From positions 8,990,001-9,054,000 of the forward strand of contig OX637295.1 of the NCBI GenBank assembly GCA_951799445.1: a stretch of 64,000 bases of DNA, read 5' to 3'. The notes beneath the pieces are model-generated. The model saw nothing but the letters and a program-made list of their open reading frames with translations. It had not been told where the DNA came from and ran no database searches. This DNA comes from Pseudisothecium myosuroides (Eukaryota > Streptophyta > Bryopsida > Hypnales > Lembophyllaceae). The translations under genes and the position numbers were made by a program. This document shows, one piece after another, positions 3,604 to 33,887 of the stretch (position 1 is its first letter; every line of letters begins with the position of its first letter).

Positions 3604-4211
3604 TGGCCGGGGGGGAGCACATTGGATCAAATTGTACTATTTCAATATAATTTTCCATTTTGGGAGCACAAAAAGTAGGTTACAAAAGATGTGGATACAA
3701 TCACCAAATATGGATGAAAAAGTGCATGAAAATAGGAACCCAAACCAATTGTGACATCTTCAAATGCCTATGCAGCGACCCTCACATTACTAAGTGCAGC
3801 ACAAATTCTTAGACCAGCATTCAAATTCCATATAGTTACATCAGACACTGAATTAACTGACTTAACTCCTGCTCATTGCAAATTCCCAGAGACTCTTTCA
3901 AGTCTCACTTTCACTGCCACAACGCCAAACCTGTCAACCCTCAAACAAGACATCGCAGTTGAGTCGCACTTGATAGATTTTCCACCTACCAACACACCCG
4001 AGCATGCTCCTTCTCATTTCGTAGCATAAATTCACACAACCAAGGAGGACTTAGCTGAGTCACAAATAGCACTAATCCTGTCCTTCAGATGTAAACTTCA
4101 TATAACTTACAATGACTATTGATAGGACAAGGATCCCTAACTTCCACCAGAAGATGGATTGCTGGAAGCTATTGCAGGATGCACACGAGCCTGCATCGTC
4201 ATTGAGTAGCG
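3604..4211 (-). other. 3' flank of kinase unit K1
   Basis: The segment 3990-4130 (with the gctgagtcacaaa motif) recurs downstream of the other units near 35150, 41940 and 55840, so it belongs to the duplicated unit. Only a trace of the minisatellite found at the same place in K2, K3 and K5 is visible near 4190-4240. Probably 3' UTR and flank. Confidence 0.55.
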
Positions 4212-7093
4212 CTACATTTGCAGACCCTCCACCCTGTGACTCAGAGCGTCCACCTCTGGCTTCTTTAGAAGCTCCAGAAGTGCAGAGGCTTTCCACTTGG
4301 CACGAGCGGAGAGGTTCCGCGAATGGGTCAAACCAGTCAAAGGCTCAACGGCGTTGGACTCTTTGACTTGCTTGATGTAGCGAGGATCATGTGAGCAAAT
4401 AATAAGCAAGAAAAAAATTGTGCGCTCATTTCGCTCCTGAATCTGCGGTGTGCTTTGATCGCCAAGAATGTTCTCCAAGGCTGCTCCCACACCGTTGGCG
4501 GAAACCAAGTCTTCAAATTCACTCAAATCATTAGGGGGCACCCCCGCCTCGACTGCGCGCGCTCTGTTCCCCTCGCAAATGCAGAGACTCATAATCGCAA
4601 ATCCAGCGTCAAACTTAGCTCGAGCAAACTGGCAGTCTGCCAACTGGTTCAGAGCACGAATAGCACCCGATTTCCCAATTGTGATCTTGTTTTCATCAAC
4701 CAAAGAGAGAAAAAATAGCAATTCTGCAGCACTGTCCTGAGCCGCCACAGATCCTGACATCAAGACCTCCACGACGGGATCAATGGCACCTGCACACACC
4801 AATCCTATGCTTACAAGTTCGGAACAGAAGACAAAGCACATTACAAGCAAGGCCTCACAATGATCAACATTATTCTACAGGAAGGTAAAACCATCAAAAT
4901 CAAGTAAATCAGTAGGCTGATACCTGCAGATACGATCTGTCGTTTGTTGCAGTCATCGATTGACAATTCCAGCAGTGCTGAAAGAGCATTCTCCTGAGGC
5001 CTTTGATCTGGAGAGAGTAACAACGCGACTAAGAGAGGTATTGCCCCTTCATTGACAATGCAGGTCCGGTGACCAACACTCTTTCTTGCTCGCAAACAGA
5101 TTCCGTAAGCAGCGATCTGTTGCACATCTCCTCTGGAATTCGATAAGTTAGCAACAAGTCTGGCTGTGGTTGCTCCAGAAGCTCCTGAGCATTGGGGGAT
5201 GTTCTCGATCCAGTCTACAAGAAGTTGAACAAACAAAAACTAAGTGTTTGCATTAACGAAAACAGGCAACACATTTCAATTGGTGATGAAACCCACTTAC
5301 AGGTCATTAAATTCCCATACAGCAAGTTCCTCAGCTCCTCACAAATGTCGCCAAAACTAGGTCGTGTGACAGCCTCGGAGCTCCAACAAGCTTCGATCAA
5401 AGTCCTCAACCGATCTGGACATTCAGGAGGTAACTGTGGGCGTCCACCACGTAATACCAGGCGTTTCACTTCACTCATAAGGCTCAAGCCTGAGAAAGGC
5501 TCATCTCCAGTCAAAATCTCATAACACACCATTGCAAAGCTATAGACATCGCTTTTGAAGGGATACTTCAATTCTACCTTCCTTGCTTGATCATCATCAT
5601 TTGCAATTTTCATCACTTCCGGAGCCATCCACCTAGTAGTACCTATATTCAAAGTCATATTGGCAGATGCAGTGTGTTCTTTTGTCTTTGACAACCCAAA
5701 ATCTGCCACCTTCACATGCCAGAATTTCATGTTTGCTCTAGCTTCCTTTCCATATTTAATCAAAATGTTACGTGCCTTCAAATCTCTGTGGACTATTCTC
5801 TTCTCATGGAGGAAAGACATTCCTTCTCCTAACTGGAAGATGAGTTGCAAAGCTTCTGAAATACGAAAAGGCGGGCTTTGATTGCCCTTCTCTTCCATTC
5901 TTTGTTGCATTCGACTGTGCAAATCCCCATCCATCAACTCCATCACAAGATGACATCTCTTCTCATCCGTCATATACCAAAGTAAGGAGACAATATTTGG
6001 GTGGCTTAGCCCTTCCAAGATTGACACCTCTTGTAAGAAATCTCCATTGTTGGGGCCATAGAAGGTCTTCTTGGCTACTTCAACTCCTAGCCACTTGGCC
6101 TTGTGCACGCTAGCTGAGGCACCTTTCCCCAAGCTTACTTGTGTTTGTTTCAAACTCAGGTTCATTTGGAGCTGACATTTATTGATTGATGTTGGCAAAG
6201 TAGCACCTGAGCGCAACCGAACCATTTCCAATCTTCCAAGTAAAAACGATGTCAATTGATGGTCTGCACTACTCAATCCATTGGATTGAGTGATTGCACT
6301 CAAATCCATAACAAGATTCATCTCGTCGAGATTAGCCATTTCCTTTACAATTTCTGCTTCAGTTTCGCGTACACTGGCAACTTCGGAGAGTCTCAAGCTC
6401 GCTGTTTTTCCCAACTTCCTCGCAGAAAAGATAATCATGCAAAACTCCAAAGTGAAACCTATCAACGCAACATGCTCAGACATGTTCGTCAAGAAGATGG
6501 CGGACTGAATCCATGACTCTCCGCAACAACTCAGGGTGAAGTCCTCCACTTCCATTCCCATCATAAAAAGTACCTTGAAAATCTCCAAAAGCCGCGCCTT
6601 ATCTTCAGGTAAAGTTAATGCAAGGAACTCTGCCTCAATTTGTTCAAAAATCGAACTTGTACTCATAATAGCTAGTCTGAGTTTGTCGACCAGATATTTG
6701 CATTGCTCTTCGTTGAACTTGCGTAGAGAAGATATCCTATCCACTTCCTCCAGACATTGTAAGGTGAGCTTCAAGTAAAGCTCTGGGGTCTCGGCCGGAG
6801 TAGAAGCAGAATCTGTAGGCACGTGCATTTCAGAGCGACATGTCAACATTGATGGAGCAAGATGAAGTTGCAATGACGAACTTATGAAGCAAAACAGAGA
6901 TTTGAAACATCATAAAATCTATCCAACAATCAAATAATGACCACCGAATAAGCTGTCAAAATAGAAGAGTTCTCATAAAGCTAAACACTGCTCAAACTTT
7001 GTAGCGCTTGGAGATGGTAGGAGGATTACCAACTTCAATGGCTTTCTTTTTGAACAGGCTAGACCAAGGTCTGTTCCAGGTAATTAGGTTCAT
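4212..7093 (-). CDS. K1: TKL-type protein kinase with C-terminal ARM repeats, intact
   Basis: Four-exon model on the minus strand: 7093-7030, 6812-5301, 5214-4924, 4789-4212. All junctions are GT-AG and in phase, giving 814 residues. Exon 1 starts ATG and reads MNLITWNRPWSSLF. Residues about 30-240 form a predicted helical domain, possibly of the kind that precedes kinases in MLKL-like proteins (inference). The kinase has a Gly loop LGKGASASV (about 249-257), a VAKK lysine (270), an alpha-C Glu (283), HRD with DLKARN (363-370), DFG (392-394), APE (418-420) and TRPSF (about 504-508), so every catalytic residue is present. Residues about 526-814 hold ARM repeats (motifs such as GAIPLLVALLLSPD) resembling plant U-box ARM proteins, but no U-box is present. 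Probably an intracellular Ser/Thr signalling kinase; substrate unknown. More 5' exons may exist upstream. Confidence 0.85.
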
Positions 7094-9339
7094 GATTCAA
7101 CGCTTGAAATGCAACCACCTTCGAAGGCCCCCCTTGCACCTGAGAAGTGATCACTGATATTTCTAGCGATGGCAAGCAAAATGAGTAAATAAGACTTAGC
7201 TCAAAATGAATGAAAACATTAATGTTAAAACACCAAAGTGCAGCATGCAAGTGTACTCAATCTCAAATAATAAACCCGTAAAACTAGAGAGTGCAATTAT
7301 TGCGCTTCTCCATTAGGCTTAGTTTTCCGTCTCATGCTCTTGCCTACCACAGACAAACTATAGGACTCAAAAAATCTACGGAATCTACTCCATACTTCAG
7401 TAAGGAACTGATCTTGAATAAGCCCCATGGGGCATTGAACCTCCTACCCCTATATGACACTGTTGAAACCGACACACAGGTAGAGCTCCAAAAGGAAATG
7501 GTCATTGGTAAATTAGAAATTGCAAAACACATGAAAGGCCGGCAACTTACGTAAATCTGCTTTCAGCGCTTGCAGGTGTTATTGTCTGCAGCACCAGTGT
7601 CCAATCGTTTTCGTTACCCTCAAGATTCAGCTGATCAAGAGAATAGTGAACCAATATTGAACCAATATCGATTTTCAGAGCACAATTACTGCTCTCAGTC
7701 CAAATATTAGGATGAACCAGCCATGTTGAGATCTCATATAAAGACTGCACATAAGTACGTGAGACCACCTTTCACCATTAAAAGCCAGGCAGCAAATTCA
7801 CTTCCGCCACTGCCGACACCTATGTTCGCATGACCTCATTCCTCGCCTCGAGTACCTCTTGCTCGCCTTACAATCACAATCATGCCACAGAAGACTGTTC
7901 AATATCGTTGCAATTACTAACAAACAGATGCCTTGAGCGGATCCATACCAAAGATGCCTTTCCTCATTCTTGTGCACCTTTGTAAGATATTCATCAATTT
8001 CGCCTCCCAGTCTGGACAGAAAACACAACAAATTGTCGGATAAAGAACACTACATCCACACCTCTACGTACTGCAAAACGCAAATAAAAAATAAGTTGTA
8101 TAACCGAACTCTACAACGCAAACAGCCAAGAGTCGGGGCAGAGAAAAGGAAATACCCTAGAGATACTGCTACGTCTCAGAAGTATAATGGTGCACATTTG
8201 TCGTCGAAGAAGAATCGCGGTAATCAGTAGATTAAGCCTGATTGACTATCTGCTGGACTCAAAAACAGTTTGACTGTATTGCGCTTTCTCTTATGTTTCA
8301 GCTCACTACATTGACATCTCCACACCTTCGAGCAAATAAGATAAATCGGACATCGTTTTCCCTCACTCCACTATTTAAAATCACGGCTCATAAAGCAATT
8401 TCACTTCTGCCCAAACCGACACCTTTGCAGCCTAGCATCTGCGGACCATTCCATTCCTTGTTTCGACCTCTTCTACGTAGCCTTAAAATCATGTCAAAGC
8501 TCGGTTACGAAATAACGGAATATTCTCGTAATCTGGTTTAAGAACAAAGCCATTAGAGAGAGAATCAGAAAACAAAAAACATAAAGACAATGGAAAACAT
8601 AATCAAGGAATTGGGAGCAGAGGAATATTCTATTTTTCAGTCTCTAAAGCACAACGGTATGCTTATCATTTACGTGAGAAGCCCTGCATCGCTAGCTGAT
8701 CTGCATCAAATCCACCATCCTAGTCGAGCAATTTAATATCCTCGAATTCATTTGAAAAACATTATTCAACCACCTCCGACTCAACAGACACAACCGACCA
8801 AACTGTCGGTAGAAGACCCCTAGACGACACGAATACCTTGAGGTCTTTGACCTTCACTCCATTCACATCAACCGCAAAATACAGAAACGAAAATCAGGTT
8901 CTATGATCGATTTAGTTTGAGTAATTGACAACGCAAAGGGCCAGGAGCTGCAACAAAGGGACTTACAGTGAGAAGCCCTGTATCGTGCGAAATCCACACT
9001 AATCGACACCTACCCAGGTCGAGAATTCACCATCCTTGCGTACTTTGAAAGACATCAACCAACCTCATCTCCAAATCTGCAGAGATGACATAACAAGATC
9101 GTCGGTAAAACCACCCTCGACCTACACCTGGACGCGGCAACCTCTCACGATATTCGCATCAAGCGTGAAACACAAATCGGAACATGACTTAATTGAAAGT
9201 ACTCCACAACGCGATGTGCCAGGAACAAAGAAAGAGAAAAGGAAATACCCTAGACACAAAGCTCGGTCTCAAAGAGTGCCGAGCACTGCAAAGATCTCAC
9301 CGAAATGGAATTGATGCAGAACTGCAACTTGTCGAGGCG
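7094..9339 (-). other. K1 5' region with conserved exon-like blocks
   Basis: Blocks here recur at the same place in K2, K3 and K5. An acceptor-like CTTCTCAG at about 7140 implies an intron just upstream of the ATG exon. A block near 7553-7660 reads LDQLNLEGNENDWTLVLQTI on the minus strand and ends at a GTAAGT donor. A short block at about 7986-8022 reads LGGEIDEYLTK after a CAG acceptor. Another at about 8673-8730 corresponds to the DWDGAFDADQLAMQGFS block of K2. They are probably upstream coding or 5' UTR exons; the frame linking them is not established and no known family is recognised. Confidence 0.45.
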
Positions 9340-9855
9340 GGGCTACAGTATTGGGAACGGGTTGGTGGAGAGCACCTGAGATACTTCTACAGGTGAAGAA
9401 GGCCGGGACTCCTAGGTCCAAGTTGGAGTTCAATGAAAAGGTAGATGTCTATAGTTTTGCCTGGACATGTTATGAGGTCGCCGTAGGACTCACACTCTTT
9501 GAAGTCCTTCAAAATGGTGATTGCGTGATGCCGTTCTTAACCCTTAAATGACGGGCTCATAACCATGGAAATCATTTGTTTTGTCACCGTGTGGATTGTT
9601 GGATTAAAATAATGCAAAAGCACTTGTTGGAAGTCAAATTACTATAGATTTTCTTCCCTTTCTCCACAAAATTTGAAGGATGAATAGTTGCACTTCTGTC
9701 CTACACAGGAGATTCTCTTGTCATTCATTGGCCTCAAAACGTCCGCCGCGTCGTTCAAGGGTTAATGGAGCCCAACCTGAGTTGCCCTCTGCTTTGGACC
9801 TAGATATGAAAATCATGATCGCTTCTTGTCGGGATCCCCACTACAAGAATAAATG
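9340..9855 (+). pseudogene. Protein kinase fragment (subdomains VIII-XI), split by a TTAA element
   Basis: On the plus strand, opposite to K1, the text reads LGTGWWRAPEILLQ, then KVDVYSFAWTCYEV. After the inserted element it resumes as LNGAQPELPSALDLDMKIM and IASCRDP. These are activation-segment APE, subdomain IX DVYSF and subdomain X-XI motifs of plant kinases, but unlike K1 in sequence, so a different subfamily. The fragment lacks the ATP lobe and catalytic loop, has one frame slip near 9525, and stops at the inverted repeat at 9858. It is a dead remnant. Confidence 0.75.
9541..9761 (+). mobile_element. Small TTAA-bounded element (S family) inside the kinase fragment
   Basis: A 221 bp element flanked by TTAA at 9537-9540 and 9762-9765, with CCCTTAAATGACG at the left and an inverted CGTCGTTCAAGGG at the right. 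Removing the element plus one TTAA joins kinase text on both sides into the VLNGAQPELP motif. This supports insertion with TTAA duplication. Confidence 0.85.
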
Positions 9856-22105: not shown

Positions 22106-23833
22106 TTACATGCAAAGATTTATTAGTGTCCACAATTGCATATAATAGTGCCTGCTTCCATTGAAAAGTTTACATGAAGATATTTTATTCTTCATTTGTC
22201 AATTCATTCCAAATTCATCCATCATGCACAAATGGTCTACAACATCTTAATAGGATTAAGCATAGAGTCATAAAAACAAATCATATTTCTAGTCACATTG
22301 CAAGTTACAATGCTTAAAAATAGATAAAATTTCCTTTTCAACATATTTAGACGTGTGTCATGAGAGTCGCGTGGGCTTGGATTCTGCATCGGATGGTGAC
22401 TGCGAAGTCGTGGAGGTGATAAAGGAGGTTTGGAGCGTCGAAGACGTCAACGGGGTCCCGACTTCTCAATTGGGGACCTCAAACCCCTTGACCTCCACGT
22501 GGAGGTTTTGGAGACTTATCTTTTTCAAGTTGAATCTCCCACGTGATGGAGTGAGAGGCTTGCCTCCCGGAATTCCATCCAAACATGCATTTACTCTTGA
22601 AGAGTGGCATTGGCTTGACTATTGTAGTTTGATAATGAGGTTTTTCTAGTTTCTTTAGAAGCTTTTCCTCATTCTTATTACTTAAAAAAGATCTCACTAT
22701 GTTTATAGGTGTATACATAGTGAAAATTGACACCTAAATTAGTTCAAAGTTGAGTTTTTGAGTGTTTTTGAGGTGTTTTGCGTGTGCTGGAATTGCAAGA
22801 CAACTTGAAGTTTTAGCACCATAGCCATGGTTTTAGGGTGTTTTAGCTTTGGAAATGGGTCTTAAACCCATAATTAGAAGTTGGGTGTATTATTCACTCG
22901 GCTTTGCGGGTTAGGATAGAAAAAGGGTGGGTTAGAAATGCGTCACCTAAGAGAAAATTCAACACTATTCCTTTGGCAATTCACTATTCACTTGGCTTTG
23001 GGGAAAAGGTTGTCTCTCTCCTAAATTTCCTCCAAAGAAGGACTTGGAGTTTAGAGGGGGAATTGGAAGAAAAATTTGGGGTGTAGATGAAATGTCCTTA
23101 ATTGTGAAGCTGGTGCTAGGTTCATTGATTTCGAGCATTATGACAATTGTGGAGAGTAGTATGTTCCTTGCTCTGTGCAGATCTGGGTATGTTGGAATTG
23201 TGACGCTATAGCGTTTACTTGGACAAATGTGGATACACTAGCATTCATGATACATCAGACCTTTCATTTTTAGCAAAGCACCGCCTATCTTAGCTCAGGC
23301 TTGTACTCATATAGGATTGCCAAAGTCACTGTGGAAATAGAGAGGGCCGAGAGAGTAGACCAAAGAGCTTGCGGTCACTCTGTACGAGAGCAGCGAAGGG
23401 TTTGAGCGTCATGCATCGCGTGAGCTTCGCCCTGCTCCCCTCGCGCATCGTTCTTCCTGGACATCTGCTGCACCATGGTGTTAGAGTAGACTTGGCATCT
23501 CATGTATTGCTTAGGGTTTCATGTAGCTCTCCGCAGCGCTTGATCGCAGAGAGATTAGGCTTCTGGCACGAGTTGCAGCTACGCAGCTTTGAATTCACAT
23601 AGTTGTAGTGTCTCAGAATCGATTGTGGACGTAGGGTCAGTTTGACGATTGGGTTACGAAGTGCTGTTCGATTGATCTGGCGTTGTGCTTCAAACCGCAT
23701 CTGGAGCAGCTTTGGAGAGTGGTAGATCACCGAGTAATTGGAGAAAATATAATTCATGTTCTTCAGTAATTTGTGTGTCATGTCAAGCCTCATTATCTGA
23801 GTCTCAACAACAATGTGAGGGTTCATGACCAAA
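22106..23833. other. Spacer, unresolved
   Basis: A GC-moderate stretch at 22330-22600 holds a perfect 16 bp palindrome (acctccacgtggaggt, near 22490) with a CACGTG G-box core. Text at 23340-23830 may be the 5' UTR or flank of the apyrase remnant. No gene can be supported. Confidence 0.35.
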
Positions 23834-24125
23834 AGCGTTACGCAGTGATTTTCGATGCTAGGAGCTCCGACAGTCGCGTGCACGTGTATGCATTCGACAA
23901 GAATCTGTAGTTGGTGAAAACTGGGAGCGAACTTGAAGTGTTCGTGCAGAAGAAACCAGGATTAAGTTCGTATGCGCTGAATCCGAAGGCAGGAGCGGAG
24001 TCGTTGCAGTCGTTGCTGGACATAGCTTTGAAGAGCGTCCCTGTAGAGCAGTTTGTATTAGCCGTGAAGCCATTGATCGGAGGTGGTGGCTCGCAGTCAG
24101 TCACGCCAATCGGGTATCAAGAGGT
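23834..24125 (+). pseudogene. Apyrase (GDA1/CD39 family) exon remnant
   Basis: The plus strand reads KRYAVIFDARSSDSRVHVYA, then KPGLSSYALNPKAGAESL and LLDIALKSVPVEQF, ending at CAAGAG followed by GT as a donor. Family members carry apyrase conserved region 1 as DAGSTGSRVH; here both glycines of that nucleotide-binding loop are replaced (DARSSDSR), and a TAG follows NL. In intact enzymes this region starts NTP/NDP hydrolysis in the Golgi or extracellular space. No other exon is visible nearby. A captured or orphaned gene piece beside the retroelement. Confidence 0.75.
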
Positions 24126-24528
24126 ACGGACGGTTTTAATTTGAATTAATTTAATTTAATTTTTTTTTTAAAAGAAAAAAAAAAGAGTTAAAATTTGAAA
24201 TTTTTTGACATCTTTAAAGTTTGTATTGGGAAGATACAAGGTGGATTAGAGGCTATTTAGGGTGCTTGGGGCCAAATGGGGGAAATTTGACCTCAAATTG
24301 GAAATTTCAGCACCTTAATTAGGGTTAGAAATCCTATTTGGGAGCCCAAAAATCCAAATTTGTCTTTGGAAAATGGGTGCTATGGATTAGAAGCATTCAT
24401 AGGTGGTTTGAGGAGTGTTTTGAGTGGATTTTGGGGTGATCTTAGGGGAGATTTTGGTTTTGACCCTAAACCCTAAATTTTAAATTCAAAACTTGAGTAG
24501 TTATAGGTGACCAAAGCATTAGTTGCTT
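24126..24528. other. AT-rich spacer upstream of the retroelement ORFs
   Basis: No LTR end, primer-binding site or gene can be assigned. Confidence 0.35.
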
Positions 24529-24969
24529 ATGGTGACCACGAGGGCCCAAGCGGCACACCAATCGGACAGGACTTGGTATAGGCCTCCAACAGTGTTTCCC
24601 CAGCTATCAGAGGCAGAACAATGGCTGCACGAGGCCGATTTCATCGCAGAATTGCTGACCATCATCCAAGAGCGAGTGCCAGTGCCACGAGGACTTCAAC
24701 ATCATGAGCTAGAGTTTTGGGAGGTGTGGCGTGCGGATTTGGCAAGGGCGCAGTGCATTGATGCTAATGCATTAGGTTTGGTGGCCTACCGGTTTTGTGT
24801 GGAGTTAACTCCCTTCATTACCTTGGAGAGTTGGGATGATGACCGTGCTAGAGTTCTGGACTGTTTGATGCATGCACAATGTCTTCATGAGATAAAAATG
24901 GAGGTACTTGAAGTTGGGCTCAATTACTTGAACCGCGACCATATGATTGACTTTGCTCAGTGCTCCTAG
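24529..24969 (+). CDS. Gag-region or unidentified N-terminal frame
   Basis: An ATG at 24529 opens 146 codons (MVTTRAQAAHQSD start) with mixed helical character and no recognised domain. Codon texture is denser in GC than the flanking spacer. Its place upstream of the other gag frames suggests it belongs to the element, but it could be an unrelated small gene. Confidence 0.35.
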   Translation: MVTTRAQAAHQSDRTWYRPPTVFPQLSEAEQWLHEADFIAELLTIIQERVPVPRGLQHHELEFWEVWRADLARAQCIDANALGLVAYRFCVELTPFITLESWDDDRARVLDCLMHAQCLHEIKMEVLEVGLNYLNRDHMIDFAQCS

Positions 24970-25530
24970 ATATGGTTAGGAGTGGATTTAGGCTAGTACC
25001 TATTAGCCTAATATAGTTAAGGTATACTTGGTGGCTTGTGCCAACTACCAAAGACCATATATGAGACTGAGGATCGATCTCTATTGTGCTATTTATTCAT
25101 ACTTTGCAGAGTTGTCTTGTCGGACACATTTTGGGGTTTGGTCGTCGTGTTGTCTGTCTGACGTCTGATGTCACGCATGACAAATGTCAAGTATGCATAA
25201 CATTTTTGTCTAATAAGGCCGTAATTAATAGCCAAGACAATTTGAAATCTTACTTTAAATGTAACCCAAAATTTAGAATGTAATAAGTGTTTATTAAATT
25301 GAGATACTTCAATAAAATGAAACGTTAATATGTCAAGATCAGAAATAGAAAGTGCTTTATTTAAAAGTCAACCTTAAAGTTGACTTTACTAGACGGACGG
25401 AGGGGCTATTGTCCGTCTATGACGTCGTGTTTGTCGAGTTGTCGGCAGGTTCGGGAAGACAACCATGATACTTTGTTCACTGGTGGATATCTCGTGGTCT
25501 CTAGTCTAAATTGTACCATGCAGCACCACG
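24970..25530. other. Interruption between gag-like frames
   Basis: About 25110-25450 is AT-rich with TGTC/GACG-rich edges, including a gacggacgg...tccgtct inverted pair near 25393-25422. It may be an insertion in the element. No ends were resolved. Confidence 0.3.
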
Positions 25531-26940
25531 ATGGACAAGGATAAGGGTGTCCCTAAGCCTTTTAGATTGATACCCGTTGGAGACACGAAAGAGGAAGGAG
25601 TTCAAATTGATCTGACCACAGAAGATCTCCAAGGGGTCCTTCAATCCTTTCAAACCCTTCACATAGCGTCCTCTAGTGACTCAGCTTTACGATTGCAGCC
25701 TCAAGAAGCGGCTTCACCATTTGTTCTTGTACAGTTGGCCCGTGACCGTTTGGGAGTTCAATCATTTAGGCATCCAGGCACAAAGGTGTTGGGTCCAAAA
25801 GCCTTCAAGTTTTGGACTCAACAACGTGGAGTGCGCCTTATTCAAGACTTGAGATCGGAGGTGCCTGTGATAGGAGCACCGTTGAACCGAGCAAAGGGAC
25901 GAGTGGAGGAAGGCAACTTGGTGATTCCACAAGTGGCGGTGGTGTTGAAGAACGAGGGACAACGCCGAAAAGTGGTGAGACACACTTTTGGAGGGGCAAT
26001 TCAGTCGCCAACCTTCTCGTTGATCTTTACGGAGTTTCGAGCGGGAGATTACTTATTTCACACCACGTGGTAGTGGGAACAAGGCTGGTGGCTGGAAAGG
26101 GCATCGAGTTTGTGGGATTCATTGACTCTATGTTTCCTTGACACGGAAATACCACCCACGATTTATTGTGAGGCTGTAGAGGGCAGTCACGAGGCATGAC
26201 AACTTTATGTGTAAGTTGACTTGTAGGTGAAACTGGATTCACTTAGGAGACCGGGTTACACTAGGAGTGGTACTCCATTTGCCAGTGACACCGTTTCAGA
26301 GTTTACTAGCGGTGTCGAGTCGGTGCAACCTCGAAGTCAGAGACATTTCTTGGGTGGGAGGAATCAACGTGAATTCGTCCAAGATTCAAGCAAAGAGCAA
26401 GCAGACTGGGTGGAACATACTGAGTGTGGTAAGGGGGAAGAATTACCAGTCACTACAGTCGACCACGGGGTGAGATTTGTTCAAAACGAATCTATCTTCG
26501 CTTGGGACGAGATAACTACACCATATGGAGGTGTAGATCGGGGAGTCAGGCGGTTTTTCGGTGCCAATGGCACTTTGGAAGTGGACGACTTCCGTAGGGA
26601 GTTCACCATGTGGTGTGAACTCCAAAAGTCACGAAATGTCAGCTTCAACCCATACATGGTATGGAGGGCACTGTTTGGGTGCCTCAAGGAAGCACCATTG
26701 ACAGATTACGGGGAATTTGAGCTTGCTTATTCCATGGAGATCTTGACTTGGCGGAGTTACTACGCTCCAAACTATACAGATGTTTGGGGAGGAGGATCCA
26801 TCGCCATAATACCTGTTAGCAGAGGAAAGAAGGAGGGAGGGGGCGCAAGCGCGGAAGGTCAAGAGGCCATCGTGACCACGAGCCCAGTGCCAGTGGCTGA
26901 CCCACTTCCCTTCAATCCTACGGCTCAATTCTTTTTGTAG
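25531..26940 (+). pseudogene. Gag polyprotein, degraded
   Basis: Two frames in the same phase (25531-26073 and 26227-26940) are separated by several stops. The first begins MDKDKGVPKPFRLIPVGD. The second includes a helical segment (ANGTLEVDDFRREFTMW) resembling the capsid-type domain of plant Ty3/gypsy gag. The closing TAG at 26938 reads as a C-to-T change in a glutamine codon, because the same phase continues beyond it. Predicted role: coat of the virus-like particle. Confidence 0.55.
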
Positions 26941-27833
26941 CTGCAGCGGGATTATTACAGACAGAGGGCCGACAAGATGAAATCACTTTGCATGTTTGCA
27001 CGTGGCAGTGATGAGTCGTTGCGAGAGGCGCACTCAAGGCTCAGGCGGTTGATATCCGCCACCCAAGGAGTGATAGAGCAGCAAGCTGTTCAACATTGGT
27101 ATAGCATCTTGGATAAAGAGCTAAAAACTCTTGTCCGAAGTGAGGCCTTCAGGTTAGGTGTTCCACCAACCTTGAGGTACGTTTTTGAGACCTCCGAGAG
27201 GATTGAGATTAACTTCTTAGAAAAAAAGGCGGCCATGGGATTCTTGCGTAAGGAGGAGAAACCGCAAGAGATAACCAAGATGGCTAAGGCCAATATTCCA
27301 GCTAATATCGGAGACACTGACATGGTATGCTTCAATTGTGGGGGCGTTGGCCACAGACGGCAGGATTGTAAGAAGAAATCCACCAAAGAAGCTGCCAAGT
27401 CTGGAGCATTTTGTTCTGGTTGTGGGATCATGAATTGAAGCCTAAGAACACGAAGGAGGCGAAGGGAGGTGATTCCAAAGAGGCCAAGTCCGGAGGAGAA
27501 GAGAAAAAGTCATGGAAGGCATACTTTACAGAGTTGGAAGTTAAAATGGCGGCCATGAGCTCAACCACTACTACGGGGGCCACTTCATTTTACGCGGAGG
27601 GAAGTGACCATATGTTGTGTGGCATAACAGATGCTGAAGGCACGCCCATAGATGCCTATGCCTTGACTAGGAGCAAGATCGTGGTACAAGATCCGCCACA
27701 AGGAGCAAGTTTGGGGTTGAATCCACAGACAGGTGAAGTCAACCGCCAAGCTAAACTACTAGAGTCATTTACGTTGCAGGATATGGTGCCTACCACGTCC
27801 ATGATTCTACCACAACGGAATTCAAGCAGTTGA
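26941..27833 (+). pseudogene. Gag C-terminus with CCHC zinc knuckle
   Basis: The frame 26977-27438 continues the gag phase. Near its end is CFNCGGVGHRRQDC, a CX2CX4HX4C nucleic-acid-binding knuckle typical of retroelement gag. A possible second knuckle start (FCSGCG) is cut by a frame change at about 27430. The new frame (27411-27833) is Lys/Glu-rich, then leads toward the protease. Predicted role: binds element RNA during packaging. Confidence 0.7.
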
Positions 27834-28100
27834 CGGGCTGCTCGAGCTCTATGTGGTGATGGACAAGGTACAAGTGTTCTCTTTGATGTAACTACCGCCG
27901 TTTGTCAAGCTCCTTTATTCACGGCATCCATGATCTCTCAGGCATAGTTTAGTGTTGCAACAGTTTTCAAATTGGCTGCTACCATGTGTGAGGACGACGC
28001 CTCAGCATCGGTAGACTCCATGGAAGCTGTGTTTGAACCATAGGCGACGATTGACAGTAATTGGTCTGATGCAGATGAGCTCTTAGCAGCCGCTGCTCGT

Positions 28101-28667
28101 GTGAAGACCATGCCAGCGCGCCCGACAATAGAGTGGTCCTCCATTATCTCAGGAGTAGTGGTATTGGACAACTCTCATGGCATCTTCCAATTGGTTGGAC
28201 CCAAAGGGAGAGTTTTTGCGCCTCGACGAGTACTATTGGATTCCGATGCACAACCCTTGATGCTGGGAGAGTCAGCAATTGAAGGCTTGGGTTTGACCGA
28301 GGATACGTTGGAGACATGTCCGTGGACGATTAGTATCTCTATGGGAGGGACGGAGCAAGTAAGTGGCATCACGAGGGGCGAAATGACATTACGTCTACGC
28401 CATGATGATGTGGAAAATGCTAGTTTCATGAAAGTGAAGGCTATAGTTACGGAGGCCAAGTCGTATAACGTCTTGGTTGGGGCTATAGTGTTGTACCCTA
28501 TGGGCTTCACCTTGGACTTCTGGGAAGAGACGACATACTATAGATCGAGATGGCAAGCAGGAGATGGGCATAGAGCTCAGCTGTCAGCTCGTTTTATACG
28601 AGTTCTTACCGGAAATTTGGTTTATCTCTATTGTTTTGCTGGGCTTGAGGGTGAGAAACAACCATGA
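28101..28667 (+). pseudogene. Aspartic protease of pol
   Basis: Residues RRVLLDSDAQPLMLG align with the LLDSGA active site of retropepsins, and GLGL and NVLVGAIVLYPMGF follow as the second conserved half. The active-site Asp remains, but the next-but-one Gly is Asp (DSG to DSD), a G-to-A change expected to weaken or abolish activity. The frame ends at a TGA (28665) and continues in the same phase into the methyltransferase, so the two were one polyprotein. Confidence 0.7.
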
Positions 28668-29915
28668 TTTCAGAAGGATTTTGAAGATCCTCCTCTTGCA
28701 GCTTCAACAGATTTCACCAAACGGATTCATAATGAGGGTGAAGACGTTGGGGGCGAGTTGTACCAACCCGACGTAGAAGTTGCATGGAAGACTATTGTGG
28801 GTTTGCAAGACACTGCTAGCAAAGTTATCCAAGAGGTGTGGCAACAATCGTTGTTGCTAAAAGAAGATGAAGTGGTTGCAGGCAAGGACAGTGAAAGTCC
28901 TCCTTTGGACACTTCAACAATCCGGTGGAAACCACTAGAAGAAGGAATAACTCTTTTAGAGTTGTTTGGTGGCATTGGCACCGGGCTGGCGGCTATATTA
29001 CAGGTAGGTATGAAGGTGAAGCGTTATGTCTATGTGGATAACGATGACATGGCACGGCAAGTAGCCAAGCGCCATGCTCGACGGTTATGCCGCGCATTTC
29101 CATTGTTGTTGAACGCGGGGGCTATCACAATCGCATTTTCTGCATTGCCAAGCGATATTTCACTAATTTCACTCCAAGACATTGTTAAATTGGGATCAGT
29201 GGATCTAGTTATCGCGGGATGGCCATGCCAAGGTATGTCTATGATTGGCAACCAAAATGGATTAAAGGACAAGCGTTCTTCAAAATTCCATGACATGGTG
29301 AAGATATTGCAGTATGTGCAGACATCTCAGCGGCGGCCACCGGGGTATATCATTGAGAATGTACCAGTGGTTGGTACATCTCAGACCCGCATGCTTGAAA
29401 ATCTTCATCATATACACAGTGTGCTTGGGATTCCTATATTGATAGATGCAGCGGCGGTCGGTTCGAGAGCTCACAGACCACGATTGTAGTGGACCAATTT
29501 GGCGCTGTCGGAGTTACTACATGCAGCAATTCCACGGATTGAACGGCCTGACGTCTACGTGAAAGATATTTTGGACCCTCACCGATTACCACAACGACCA
29601 AGTACCACTTGTGGTGGTAAATCGTAAGGGTGAGTCATGAAGAGCTTTACTAACAGTGGTAAGTTTTTCAAGGTCTTATGCCTTCAAGGACAATGGGCAT
29701 GGGCTGGTGTGGGATGCCCGCACTGAAGAGATGTTGAAACCCAATGCGGATGAGCGAGAGTGGGCTATGGGATTTCAAACGGACACCACTCAGGTACCTG
29801 ACATCACCGAGTTTCAATGACGATATCTCATGGGTCAGGCCATGGATTTAAATTGTCTTTCGTGGGTTGTGTCCCTTGTCACTACCGAACAGAAGCGATT
29901 AACTTCCACGTTGGA
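28668..29915 (+). pseudogene. C5-cytosine DNA methyltransferase domain within pol
   Basis: In one phase: motif I LLELFGGIGTGLAA (about 28947), the acidic loop YVYVDNDD, motif IV DLVIAGWPCQGMS with catalytic Cys (about 29223), motif VI IIENVP (about 29355) and motif VIII GSRAHRPRL (about 29460). After a TAG at 29487 the text continues WTNLALSELL. One phase later come REWAMGFQTDTT (motif IX-like) and RYLMGQAMDL (motif X-like). The order is linear, unlike the permuted plant DRM enzymes. Closest by eye to Dnmt3-like or retroelement DNMTs; a bacterial origin is not excluded. Two stops (29487, 29818) and one frameshift inactivate this copy. Activity would be AdoMet-dependent 5-methylcytosine formation. 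Confidence 0.85.
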
Positions 29916-30360
29916 TGGTCACTTGGGTTTCCATGAGCTACAAAAGGCTATGAAACCATCAAGTTCTGAAAGTCCACACTTGATGGTTGGGGGCGTAGAC
30001 ACCTGTGCAGCTCACTCATGGGACATATGGAAAAGCAACACATTTTTCACAACTCCAAGGCCAAGTTCAAGCAGTTGGGAGCAATTGGCTAAGCCGAGAA
30101 TGAAGTTGGAGGAAGATGTAGAGAAACTTTTATTCGAGGAGCACATATCGGATCAAATAGAGGAGCTATGGTGCTTGAGCCAAGTAGAAGAATGACATAG
30201 CATGGCGGGTGTAGAGTAAGATGAAGTTGCTCCAACTAGAGTGCAATAGCAACCAAAGGTAAAAAGAGCTGTTCCAAAGGAAGAACGGAAGGAAGTGGTG
30301 ACCAAGGAAACTTGAAAACCATTAGTAGACCTGGAGGATAAAACAAAGGGAGAATAAGAG
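29916..30360 (+). other. Linker between methyltransferase and reverse transcriptase
   Basis: Open in the same phase as the RT to 30195, with several stops after that. No domain recognised. Confidence 0.5.
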
Positions 30361-31233
30361 TTCCTCAAGAGTTACGTGGATTGCGTTGCATTTAGCTTGA
30401 AGGACTTGGGAGTCCTTTGGGGACAACAGATCCGTATAAACTTGACGGATGATGCACCCATTTATCGCAAACCATACAAGTAAAGTGAGGTAGAGCGCAA
30501 GATGATCTAAGACCGAACTAAGGAGTTGTTGGAGGCCGGTTTGGTGGAGTTAGCACCTTCGGACTGCGAGTATGCATCAACAACGGTTATGCCATCCAAG
30601 AAGGATAATTGGACCGAGAAGAGGATGTGCGGGAATTATGGGAGAATTAATAAGTTCATAAAGTCCAATCGTTATGCGATGCCAACACCGGAGGAGAACT
30701 TTGACGCCATCGGCCATGCCAAAGTATTTAGTACTTTGGATCTCCAGTCGGGATATCACCAACTTGGCATTCGAGAAGGTTATAAAGGAAAAACGACGTT
30801 TTGGAGGATTGATGAGGATGGAAAGGACCGATTGCATCAGTGGAGGTTCCTTCCTTTTGGATTGAAAAACGCACCTGCTGAGTTTTAAAGAGTCATGGAC
30901 CGTATCTTTGCAGGCTTGGAGTTTGTGAAATGCTACATTGATGACATCATTGTCTTTAGCGTGAATCAGAATCAACATAGAGCTCACTTGAAGGAGGTTT
31001 TTGTTAGACTGAGACTCCATGACTTAAAATTGCATCCGAACAAATGCAAGTTTTATTATGACCGTGTAGAGTGTTTGGGCCACATGATATACCCTGGTGG
31101 ATTGGATGTGGTAGCTAGCAAAGTGGAAGTGATGGTTTCTATACCAAGGCCGAAGGATGTGAGTAGACTTCGTGCATTTTTGGAGTTGTGCAACTACTAT
31201 CGGAAGTTTGTGAAATGTTTAGTGCCATTGTAA
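30361..31233 (+). pseudogene. Reverse transcriptase
   Basis: Motifs in order: DDAPIYRKPYK, RTKELLEAGLVELAPS, CGNYGRINKFIKSNRYAMP, FSTLDLQSGYHQLGI (first catalytic Asp), QWRFLPFGLKNAPAEF and YIDDIIVFS (catalytic DD pair). Stops lie at 30481, 30508 and 30886; the last falls where related elements have Gln (AEFQRVMD), so CAA became TAA. A one-base slip near 31215 moves the rest into another phase. The catalytic Asp residues survive, but the protein is broken. Confidence 0.85.
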
Positions 31234-32144
31234 AGCCATTGACCATGCTGACAAGGAATGATCAACCTTGGATGTGGGGAGATGAGCAAGAGGCCGCCTT
31301 CATGCAATTGAAGGAGCGTTTATCATCGGCACCCATCTTGAGGAGGCCGATTCCTGGTAGAACGTACCAATTGCACACAGACTGGAGCTCACTCGAGATT
31401 GGCGCAGTGTTGACACAAATGGATGATGATGGCAGGGAGTTTGTAGTAGCTTATGCCAGTCGCTCCAACAACAATGCGGAGGCACAGTACAGCTCATACA
31501 AGGGAAAGTGTTTAGGAGCGATTTGGGCCATTGCTCACTTTTGTTGCTATTTATATGGCAACAAATTTCTATTGGTGACAGACTACCAACCGTTGAAGTG
31601 GCTCATGGAGTCTGACAAGCTTACTGGTAAGCTTGCACGATGGGCCTTGATGTTGATGGAGTATGACTTCAAAGTTGTACACCGTGTCGGTTTGATGAAC
31701 ATGGATGCTGACGGCTTGAGTCGCAATCCAAGTCTTAGCCAAGTGGACTCTACGGAGGCTCGTTGGCACGTGGAGGAGGGAGAAGATTGGTTACTAGGGT
31801 GGCATGCTGCCGCTTATTTGAGTTTGTTGGCAATGATTGGAGACGTCACCGGGGAAGCCATTGTGGCCAAGATGGATGCGGATGGTGGTGAAGAGTCTGG
31901 AGGCGCCAAGGACATTTTCGAGGATGAAGATGTGATGAAGTATTTGAAGCTTGGTGAATTGGCACCCACAGTGTCAGCCAAGGAGAAGGACCGGATCCTA
32001 CAACAAGCCAAGAGGTTTATATGGGAGGGGGATCACTTACTTCGTATATGGCCAGATGGCAACAAGAAGGTGGTATCGGCGCCTCATGAGAGAGTGAAGT
32101 TAATTATGCACGCACACGAGGACTTGGAGCACTTTGGAGTGTGA
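31234..32144 (+). pseudogene. RNase H and integrase N-terminus
   Basis: Starts after the slip with FSAIVKPLTMLTRNDQPWMW, then RNase H text: YQLHTDWSSLEIGAVLTQ (first Asp), SSYKGKCLGAIWAI and LLVTDYQPLKWLM. Family members have Glu where KGKC shows Lys, so the catalytic Glu is lost by a G-to-A type change. The tail holds the HHCC zinc-binding start (HEDLEHFGV) and ends at a TGA (32142) that replaces an expected Arg. Confidence 0.8.
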
Positions 32145-33215
32145 AGAACTCACAACTTGCTGCAAATTCACTATTGGTGGAAAGGCATGCAAACACAAGT
32201 CCAACAGTTGATAGCCAGATGTACGGTTTGTGATAGAGTGCGGGCATCATTTAATGCCCCGATGCCTCAACTACAACCGTTGCCAATCATGGGATTAGGC
32301 TATAGGTGGAGTTTAGACTTTGTAGGATTATTGTCAATAACATTACAACATAACAAGTATGTGTTGGTGATGATTGAGCACTTTTCCAAATGGATAGAGT
32401 TGGTGGCGTTGCTTGACAAGTTTAGTGAAGGAGCCGCTTATTCATTCTTGGACCGAGTGTTGAGTCGCTTTGGAGTTCCAGCTGAGGTGTTGACTAACCA
32501 AGGGCGTGAGTTTCTTGGAGAATTTCAAGCCTTGTGCGAACAAGCGATGATTGATCACCACACTACCTCACGGGATCATCCCGAAACAGATGGATTGGCG
32601 GAGCGCATGGTGCAAACCGTCAAGAGGGGACTTCGCAAGTATAGTTTGAAGAAGGGCCATCATGGAGATTGGGACTTACAATTACCGTGGATAGCAATGG
32701 GCTATTGGTTTAGTAAGCAAGCATCTTTGGCTTCTTTCTCACTCTATTATTTGTTGTTTGGTCGCCATTCGATTTTACTAATGGCAATCAAACAAGATGC
32801 AGATAAGATATTAGATCACATGGATGATCCAGACATGTGGGCTCGAGTATGCGAGCAACGTGTGGAATTATACAAGAGGGTGATGTCCATGGTTTTGGAG
32901 AACTTTTCTATTGCGCAGCATAGAGACACTCTGCGTTATGCCACGATACAAGGAAGAGGCTATAAACCTCAAGTGCGACGTTTTCTGCCCGGTGACTATG
33001 TCTATTTGTAGCAAACAGCGCCTACCACCCTTGACATGACTGCAGGGCGTATTATTCTACGAGCGCGTGAGGTGCTTAAGTTGGGAGTTTTGCTCTTGGA
33101 GGGTCGTGATGGCAAGATCTGGAAAGATCACACGTGCAATTGTGCGCCATGTCATTTGCCACACATTGATGGACGTATTGATTCCAGTGGATCACGGATT
33201 GTGGCTGGGCTGAAA
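32145..33215 (+). pseudogene. Integrase core and C-terminal domain
   Basis: The zinc-binding half RCTVCDRVRA is followed by the DDE core: SLDFVGLL (first Asp), VLTNQGREFLG (second position, Asp replaced by Asn) and HPETDGLAERMVQTVK (Glu). The Asp-to-Asn change is G-to-A and would abolish strand transfer. The C-terminal part GDYVYL is cut by TAG at 33009 where related elements show Gln, and continues in phase to the PHD finger. Confidence 0.8.
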
Positions 33216-33353
33216 TGCGTGTTGTGTGGAAGCGCCAAGAGCGCTGCTACTATGGTATTATGCGATGTTTGTTCGACTGGGTGGCACACGGGTTGTTTGA
33301 CACCGCCATTGTAAAAAATTCTGGCAGATCGGTGGGTTTGTCCCAAAATGTGT
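33216..33353 (+). pseudogene. PHD finger at the pol C-terminus
   Basis: In the integrase phase the text reads CVLCGSAKSAA, then MVLCDVCSTGWHTGCLTPPL, a TAA at 33312, and RWVCPKMC. Spacing gives Cys4-His-Cys3 (C-C, C-C, H-C, C-C) with the WVCP signature of PHD zinc fingers. PHD fingers usually read histone H3 tails. In chromoviruses this position holds a chromodomain, so a targeting role is plausible (inference). Confidence 0.85.
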
Positions 33354-33887
33354 GTCGGGGCAAGGACAAACATCTTCATCTTTGTAGGGTTTTCCATTGG
33401 GTTCTCGTTGGTTCTTTGGAGAAGGCCATTGAGTTCACCAGTGTGAAAGGGGCTTCGACATCGGCGAAGGGGGTGAGTAAAAGAGTGGTTACCAAACCAC
33501 TTGCTACATCTGGTGTACTCTTATATCATGGGTGTTTAGTTTCTTTACTTTGCTATGGATGTCGCTGGTGTTTAGTGCTTCTGATGATAGGATGTTTTTC
33601 GCATTTCTTTCATTACTTGTAGGATTTGCCGTGATTGTGATATACATCACAAGTCACGAGGCGTTTTCCCTATGACCACGGTATTTACCGCTAGTCAGGA
33701 GCTATTGGACTTTGGTGTGGTTAGGTTGCTAGCCAATTACAAGGTCTATTGTTATTTATGGCACGCTTGCTCTCATGTTGGCTCGATATGATCTTGGCAC
33801 GATGTGTTTGTGCACGACACGTGCTTCATCCATTTCATATAGCAATGTTGTATCTTGAGGAAAATTGAAGACATTCTACAATAACAC
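33354..33887. other. 3' tail of the retroelement and spacer
   Basis: Probably the 3' UTR or LTR of the element. No polypurine tract or repeat matching the 5' side was found. Ends where a B-family TTAA element begins. Confidence 0.35.

Follow-up and report, generated by a model that had tools for sequence, protein, structure and literature searches.

The DNA analyzed here (hereafter, the window) is a 64,000-nucleotide stretch of the moss Pseudisothecium myosuroides, contig OX637295.1, corresponding to C9:8990001-9054000 of its 388-Mb genome (the own genome, below). It holds a broken Ty3/gypsy element that carries both a cytosine methyltransferase (MTase) and a PHD finger and that extends from 22356 to 33819, as delimited by comparison with another copy (L036/L037, in reverse complement). 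Many stops and frame changes occur throughout the window copy, whose domains follow, in pieces, the order gag with a CCHC knuckle, protease, MTase, reverse transcriptase (RT), RNase H, integrase, and PHD finger. The Pfam families DNA_methylase, PHD, RT, RNaseH, integrase (rve, H2C2), and CCHC knuckle were all matched, and the pol order RT-RNaseH-integrase with rve and H2C2, established by Pfam and protein similarity, is that of Ty3/gypsy elements (Metaviridae). A sequence-only reading of the window had proposed a Ty3/gypsy element with both domains; Pfam and the related copies confirm this proposal, and the MTase and the PHD finger are conserved parts of the element family. The span given in that reading, 24529..33640, requires correction, as 24529 is the ATG of an upstream open reading frame (ORF) internal to the element.

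All features of the element lie on the plus strand, apart from the target duplications, which have no strand. The element is bordered by the 4-bp target duplication CGTG at 22352..22355 (CGTG junction to TGTC) and at 33820..33823 (GACA junction to CGTG). Its left end is formed by a repeat, A1 (325 bp, 22356..22680; 94.8% identical to repeat A of L036 across 325 bp), and its right end by a second repeat, B (33476..33819), while the further repeats A2 and B2 are absent from this copy. Gag is found in two open pieces (26227..27438) that are similar to the gag of a relative on a 9.3-kb contig, L001 (E 7e-9 and 2e-5), and includes the CCHC knuckle at 27328-27369 (zf-CCHC, E 4.6e-6). The aspartic protease region (28044..28664) displays 37% identity to L001 over 174 amino acids (E 6e-30) and a weak Asp_protease_2 match (E 0.023). 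It is followed by a DNMT3-type MTase with motifs I to X (28926..29870), interrupted by a stop at 29487 and by frame changes, and by a conserved stop, TAGCAACCA, in a CARYYA context (30247..30255). Downstream of this stop lie the RT in two open pieces (30511..31230; RVT_1, E 1.4e-7 and 6e-13), RNase H with a linker (31167..32141; RT_RNaseH, E 1.7e-30), the integrase with its H2C2 and DDE core (32145..33008; rve, E 3.8e-11; Integrase_H2C2, E 1.7e-7), and, behind the integrase C-terminal barrel, the PHD finger (33216..33353), which has one internal stop in the window copy.

Searches of the own genome revealed that the two domains are paired in dozens of dispersed related copies and thus belong to the element rather than to this copy alone, as had been proposed. 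The MTase piece gave 127 matches, and an integrase-PHD relative used as query (P0121) gave at least 150 (149 of 291 candidates scored). For MTase matches exceeding 500 nt at no less than 78% identity (n = 49), an integrase-PHD match followed downstream on the same strand within 12 kb in 45; the spacing was 3.05-3.38 kb in 42 of these pairs and exactly 3151 bp in 19. Distant MTase matches (<58%) had an integrase-PHD partner in 34 of 49 cases, and the PHD end was reached in 39/45 close and 28/34 distant pairs. The same picture was obtained from the RT, for which rows rather than copies were counted, split copies entering twice, and for which an integrase-PHD match may cover the integrase part alone. 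RT matches at 78% or above (n = 54) were accompanied by the MTase in 52, by the integrase-PHD part in 50, and by both in 48, and those at 53-77% (n = 41) in 36, 39, and 34, respectively. Twelve rows first omitted, of which six were the second parts of split copies and six belonged to copies otherwise missing, were checked separately and gave 11, 10, and 9, with none lacking both. Altogether, the 107 RT matches at 53-100% had the MTase upstream in 99, the integrase-PHD downstream in 99, both in 91, and neither in 0; copies with gag-pol but neither domain, which would have pointed to chance insertion, were thus not seen among them. In the next RT class (43 matches, 39-41% identity), 0/43 had an MTase or integrase-PHD partner. 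The 107 and 43 rows are the 150 scored of 753 candidates, and copy numbers are therefore lower bounds.

The MTase piece at 28668-29486 matches Pfam DNA_methylase with an E value of 2.6e-12, and its downstream part, comprising what we take to be motifs IX and X, runs to about 29870 in another frame. The motifs quoted in the sequence-only reading are all present, namely FGGIGTG (28965-28985), GWPCQGMS (29217-29240), IIENVP (29349-29366), and GSRAHRPRL (29460-29486). Structural comparison identified DNMT3 as the nearest solved class, with DNMT3A (E 1e-12 and 3e-15) scoring better than HhaI, DRM2, and DNMT2, and the motif order is linear. A bacterial-type MTase was also considered and dropped for DNMT3. 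The catalytic Cys is retained in 29/30 copies, the PCQ triplet in 25/30, and ENV in 29/30, with KNV in the remaining one. Across these 30 copies, the ratio of nonsynonymous to synonymous change (pN/pS) was calculated separately for changes common to at least three copies and for singletons. In the MTase it was 0.18 for shared changes (33 of them synonymous and 18 nonsynonymous) and 0.63 for singletons; the corresponding values were 0.25 and 0.86 for the gag part, and 0.30 and 0.75 for the protease part. The low ratio of shared relative to singleton changes indicates that purifying selection acts on the MTase. Two of the copies, L026 and L027, have equal scores, and the latter very likely arose by duplication of the former in the assembly; L027 was kept in the stop and selection counts and dropped from the C-to-T test described below.

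The Cys4-His-Cys3 PHD finger that had been noted downstream of the integrase was likewise borne out, both in its zinc ligands and in its fold. The piece at 33207-33371, with X at its stop, matches Pfam PHD (E 1.7e-9), and all eight zinc ligands are retained in 22/22 other copies examined (the best-scoring of 150 loci). Among the folds listed for a model of this finger, the best alignments were to PHD-finger structures that include a histone H3 tail, unmodified in several cases, and the nearest solved folds include the H3-tail readers ATXR5, BAZ2A/B, MOZ, UHRF1, and ORC1b. The shared-change pN/pS in the RNaseH-integrase region was 0.15. In three distant relatives (P0145, P0150, and P0153), the integrase tail and PHD are followed by long extra tails, and the PHD may be older than the MTase in this lineage.

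The sequence-only reading had placed the MTase within pol, in one phase with the RT. In the window copy, however, the protease and MTase share a frame and the RT lies in a different one, and in relatives gag-protease-MTase (ORF1) is cut off by the conserved stop from an in-frame ORF2 encoding RT-RNaseH-integrase-PHD. A stop occupies this site in 30/30 copies of the window's family (family A, window included), as TAGCAACCA in 23, TAGCAACGA in 4, and TAACAACCA in 3, and no other of the 1237 codon positions carries a stop in more than 6 of the 30 copies. The family A copy L037 has ORF1, TAG CARYYA, and a same-frame ORF2. L001 likewise displays an open gag-protease-MTase, TAG CAATCA, and a same-frame RT-RNaseH-integrase-PHD of 1047 codons, and L057, a copy of a second family (family B) in the own genome, carries TAG CAACCA at the corresponding site, followed by a 1043-codon ORF2 ending in the PHD. 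Seven of 13 proteins looked at (P0037, P0088, P0091, P0154, P0155, P0159, and P0167) terminate at the homologous place, and in P0163 and P0167 the protease and MTase were found by Pfam within one natural ORF. The arrangement is that of type I readthrough, UAG CARYYA separating two same-frame ORFs, a signal known from plant RNA viruses, namely tobamoviruses (PMC5382211). Taken by itself, TAGCARYYA shows no clear enrichment in the window, L057, or L001; the motif is informative through its position only. Given this conserved in-frame stop, the MTase is probably made together with Gag, and the integrase-PHD by readthrough.

No flanking direct repeats, that is, ordinary long terminal repeats (LTRs), were found around the window copy, because the ends are split direct repeats. 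A copy at C1:13.17 Mb begins with A1 (325 bp), followed by the coding region, B1 (345 bp), A2, and B2, with A1/A2 and B1/B2 each 99.7% identical; this A1-coding-B1-A2-B2 order stands in place of the two plain identical LTRs of a Ty3/gypsy element. B1 joins A2 at the palindrome GACAGCTGTC, which recurs in L057 and L001 (1 match versus 0.02 expected in L001). TG...CA termini and a 4-bp target duplication were seen in 2/2 copies examined with both ends. Among the 22 best-scoring of 150 integrase-PHD loci, 8 retain B1-A2-B2, with B1/B2 identities of 98.3-100% and the exact palindrome in 7 of the 8, and 14 have a single B, as does the window copy, from which we infer a loss of A2 through B1-B2 recombination. 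In the repeat survey (40 of 166 candidates scored), a contiguous A-B repeat (97%) was observed at C4:21129948-21130617 with no other listed repeat adjoining, possibly a solo remnant of A1-A2 recombination. A Met-tRNA primer site with at most 2 mismatches was absent from L001 and matched 5 times in the window versus 4 expected.

Named relatives of the element occur in the liverwort Calypogeia fissa, in Marchantia, also a liverwort, and in Closterium sp. NIES-54 (Zygnematophyceae), and many more were found in metagenome contigs; no relatives were found in viral contigs in the scans made. The Marchantia protein P0136 includes an MTase remnant and an integrase-PHD in one frame. These liverwort and algal relatives suggest that the architecture is old. 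L001 itself lies in a metagenome-assembled genome (MAG) labelled Synechococcales, where it is most likely a eukaryotic contaminant, and P0156, annotated as a DNA cytosine methyltransferase, lies in a MAG labelled Obscuribacterales. With such plant- or algal-type relatives in MAGs carrying bacterial labels, it is probable that some database entries for "bacterial DNA methylases" represent retroelements of plants or algae. A third group is represented by L038 (G000:C49:523831-533830), which has gag-protease-MTase and no RT, integrase, or PHD match in its 10 kb. About ten MTase matches are of this kind (near 47%, unpaired), often with a 1047-codon open frame, L038 being the only one read; several lie on small contigs, and some are probably assembly duplicates. 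This group is perhaps a non-autonomous derivative. Separately, the 765-amino acid protein P0217 has an MTase followed by an integrase with no RT domain listed in between.

The closest known element is KnitGypsy-Dnmt3 of Klebsormidium nitens, and the pointer in the sequence-only reading to the retrotransposon-borne DNMTs of de Mendoza and colleagues (2018) was well chosen. KnitGypsy-Dnmt3 is described as having Gypsy domains, a DNMT3-type MTase in its polyprotein under purifying selection, and, according to the legend of Fig. 4c, a DIRS-like repeat structure (PMC5890265). Our element shares with it the DNMT3-type MTase in a Gypsy polyprotein, the purifying selection on this MTase, and the DIRS-like repeats. 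However, the MTase of KnitGypsy-Dnmt3 is placed in the Pol ORF (PMC5890265), whereas the MTase described here closes ORF1 ahead of the conserved stop, and the present family has land-plant (liverwort) relatives. The main text of that paper contains none of the words PHD, readthrough, and moss, and at the level of titles and abstracts we found no report of a PHD together with an MTase in one retrotransposon. The PHD, the Gag-side MTase, and the readthrough stop appear to be new. Two other retroelement-borne MTases are SymbioDIRS-Dnmt3 and SymbioLINE-Dnmt, the former DNMT3-type and reported to methylate CG in yeast (PMC5890265); these elements use tyrosine recombinase or LINE machinery, whereas ours has a DDE integrase and 4-bp target duplications. 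Streptophyte elements are mentioned briefly in a 2025 paper (PMC12344493), and the word retrotransposon is absent from the text seen of a Marchantia review (PMC9516144).

Individual features of the element are shared with other groups. DIRS, PAT, and Ngaro elements have split direct repeats in the order A-coding-B-A-B together with a tyrosine recombinase. The present element has similar split repeats but an rve integrase, TG...CA ends, and target duplications, and no phage-integrase-type Pfam match was obtained in the window copy or L001. Chromoviruses are Ty3/gypsy elements with an integrase chromodomain (PMC6317226); like them, our element carries a chromatin-reader-type domain on the integrase C-terminus, with a PHD in the chromodomain's stead, and a chromodomain was not matched by Pfam in the window copy or L001. 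In the Ginger1-9_HM family, a Gypsy-type integrase is described as bearing a PHD at its C-terminus, and Ulp1 is also present (PMC2836005). Our element shares this integrase arrangement and is a retrotransposon, whereas Ginger1 elements are DNA transposons. To our knowledge, Ginger1 includes neither RT nor MTase.

We consider it rather probable that the window copy is a decayed member of a Ty3/gypsy-type, split-repeat family in which a DNMT3-type MTase and an integrase-linked PHD are stable parts and in which readthrough, MTase, and PHD would act in one replication cycle. The element RNA would be translated mainly into Gag-Protease-MTase, while a minority of ribosomes would pass the conserved UAG-CARYYA and append RT-RNaseH-integrase-PHD. 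With the MTase in ORF1 and the integrase-PHD reached by readthrough, the particle would contain the MTase at near-Gag amounts and the integrase-PHD at pol amounts. The MTase would methylate the element's complementary DNA (cDNA) inside the particle or on exit, and the integrase C-terminal barrel and PHD would dock on H3 tails, probably K4-unmodified, thereby guiding insertion with its 4-bp target duplication. This cycle was built from the domains, their order, the stop and its context, the repeats, the target duplications in 2 copies, and the selection on the MTase, and its steps of readthrough itself, packaging, cDNA methylation, H3 binding, and targeting are predictions derived from them. 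A writer-plus-reader function, as suggested in the sequence-only reading, is a good hypothesis. More tentatively, and with less than even confidence, the family may represent a widespread green-plant retroelement lineage with a two-part epigenetic kit, that is, a DNMT3 at Gag stoichiometry acting on new cDNA and a Tudor-like barrel with a PHD steering it to K4-unmethylated H3. If so, new copies would arrive already silenced in permissive chromatin. The kit would resemble DNMT3 and its ADD reader, except that a leaky stop codon would assign one part to the capsid and the other to the integrase.

Several observations weigh against this cycle. Some MTase matches lack an integrase-PHD (4/49 in family A and 15/49 among the distant ones), the MTase singleton ratio is still 0.63 with a small class of shared changes, and the PHD has too few shared changes for a selection estimate (1 synonymous, 0 nonsynonymous). 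In a weak test on singleton transitions in 29 copies, no CG-specific C-to-T footprint was found, the rates per C site being nearly equal (CG 0.358, CHG 0.343, CHH 0.309, compared with 0.144 for A and T); host and element methylation are inseparable by this test. The KnitGypsy MTase showed no activity in yeast, a result termed inconclusive by its authors (PMC5890265). The stop context is not uniform, with the exact UAG-CARYYA in 23/30 copies, UAG followed by CAACGA in 4/30, and UAA in 3/30. No own-genome copy was found with both ORFs open, as the L036/L037 copy has an open ORF2 and a stop inside the MTase, and L057 has stops within ORF1. Finally, family B and L001 are 78% identical in ORF2 and 46% in the MTase-containing ORF1 ends (family A and L001, 66% and 52%). 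This disagreement implies partly separate histories of ORF1 and ORF2, which may have been exchanged between elements, unless ORF1 evolved faster in family B.

Alternative explanations were weighed against the same evidence. It is possible, though we doubt it, that the PHD is a structural or protein-contact part of the integrase and no histone reader, as PHD folds also serve non-histone contacts; its nearest solved folds, however, include H3-tail readers, and it occupies the integrase C-terminus, where chromoviruses carry their chromodomain. We regard it as rather unlikely that the MTase is kept for a role other than cDNA methylation, either particle nucleic-acid binding, which would be useful on the Gag side where it lies, or methylation of host DNA or RNA that disturbs or exploits silencing. 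Such a role would fit the missing CG footprint, but the near-complete retention of the catalytic Cys, PCQ, and ENV and a selection at least as strong as that on the gag and protease parts argue against it. Translation of ORF2 from its own message or by reinitiation, with the stop merely ending ORF1, accommodates the CAACGA and UAA variants but seems improbable, as the frame is the same on both sides and the exact UAG-CARYYA occurs in three lineages whose ORF2 is 62-78% identical. Chance insertion of host genes into the window copy alone is refuted to near certainty by the pairing counts, with both domains at 91/107 RT matches, neither at 0, and the same order and spacing in dozens of dispersed copies, including the 19/45 pairs at exactly 3151 bp.

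The 2018 work left open why a parasite carries an enzyme that silences parasites. Here, in a genome with young copies (B pairs 98.3-100% identical in the 8 copies with both), a single element combines the enzyme with a probable chromatin reader and a translation switch, which makes this question directly testable. The Gag-side position of the MTase leads to the prediction that the enzyme works in the particle, and the family offers a natural setting, seldom available, for testing whether mobile elements mark DNA and select their insertion sites.

Two further ORFs lie upstream of gag. ORFa (24529..24969; 146 amino acids, MVTTRAQ...) is open in both copies compared, with a pN/pS of 0.28, and ORFb (25531..26073; MDKDKG...) has a pN/pS of 0.25 and matched 0 Pfam families. 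In this two-copy comparison, the synonymous divergence of ORFa/ORFb (24529-26073) was 0.27-0.30 versus 0.12-0.14 for ORF1/ORF2, about twofold higher, as if the 5' part of the element, with its constrained ORFs, were mosaic. ORFb and ORF1 share a common frame across two stops, and a GTAAGT...TTGTAG context there resembles a splice site. Outside the element, the window (4200-9350 and 34800-62700) is occupied by a tandem host array of minus-strand ORFs in long units that are ~66-91% identical, and these ORFs, named by eye, are kinase-like and ARM-repeat-like.

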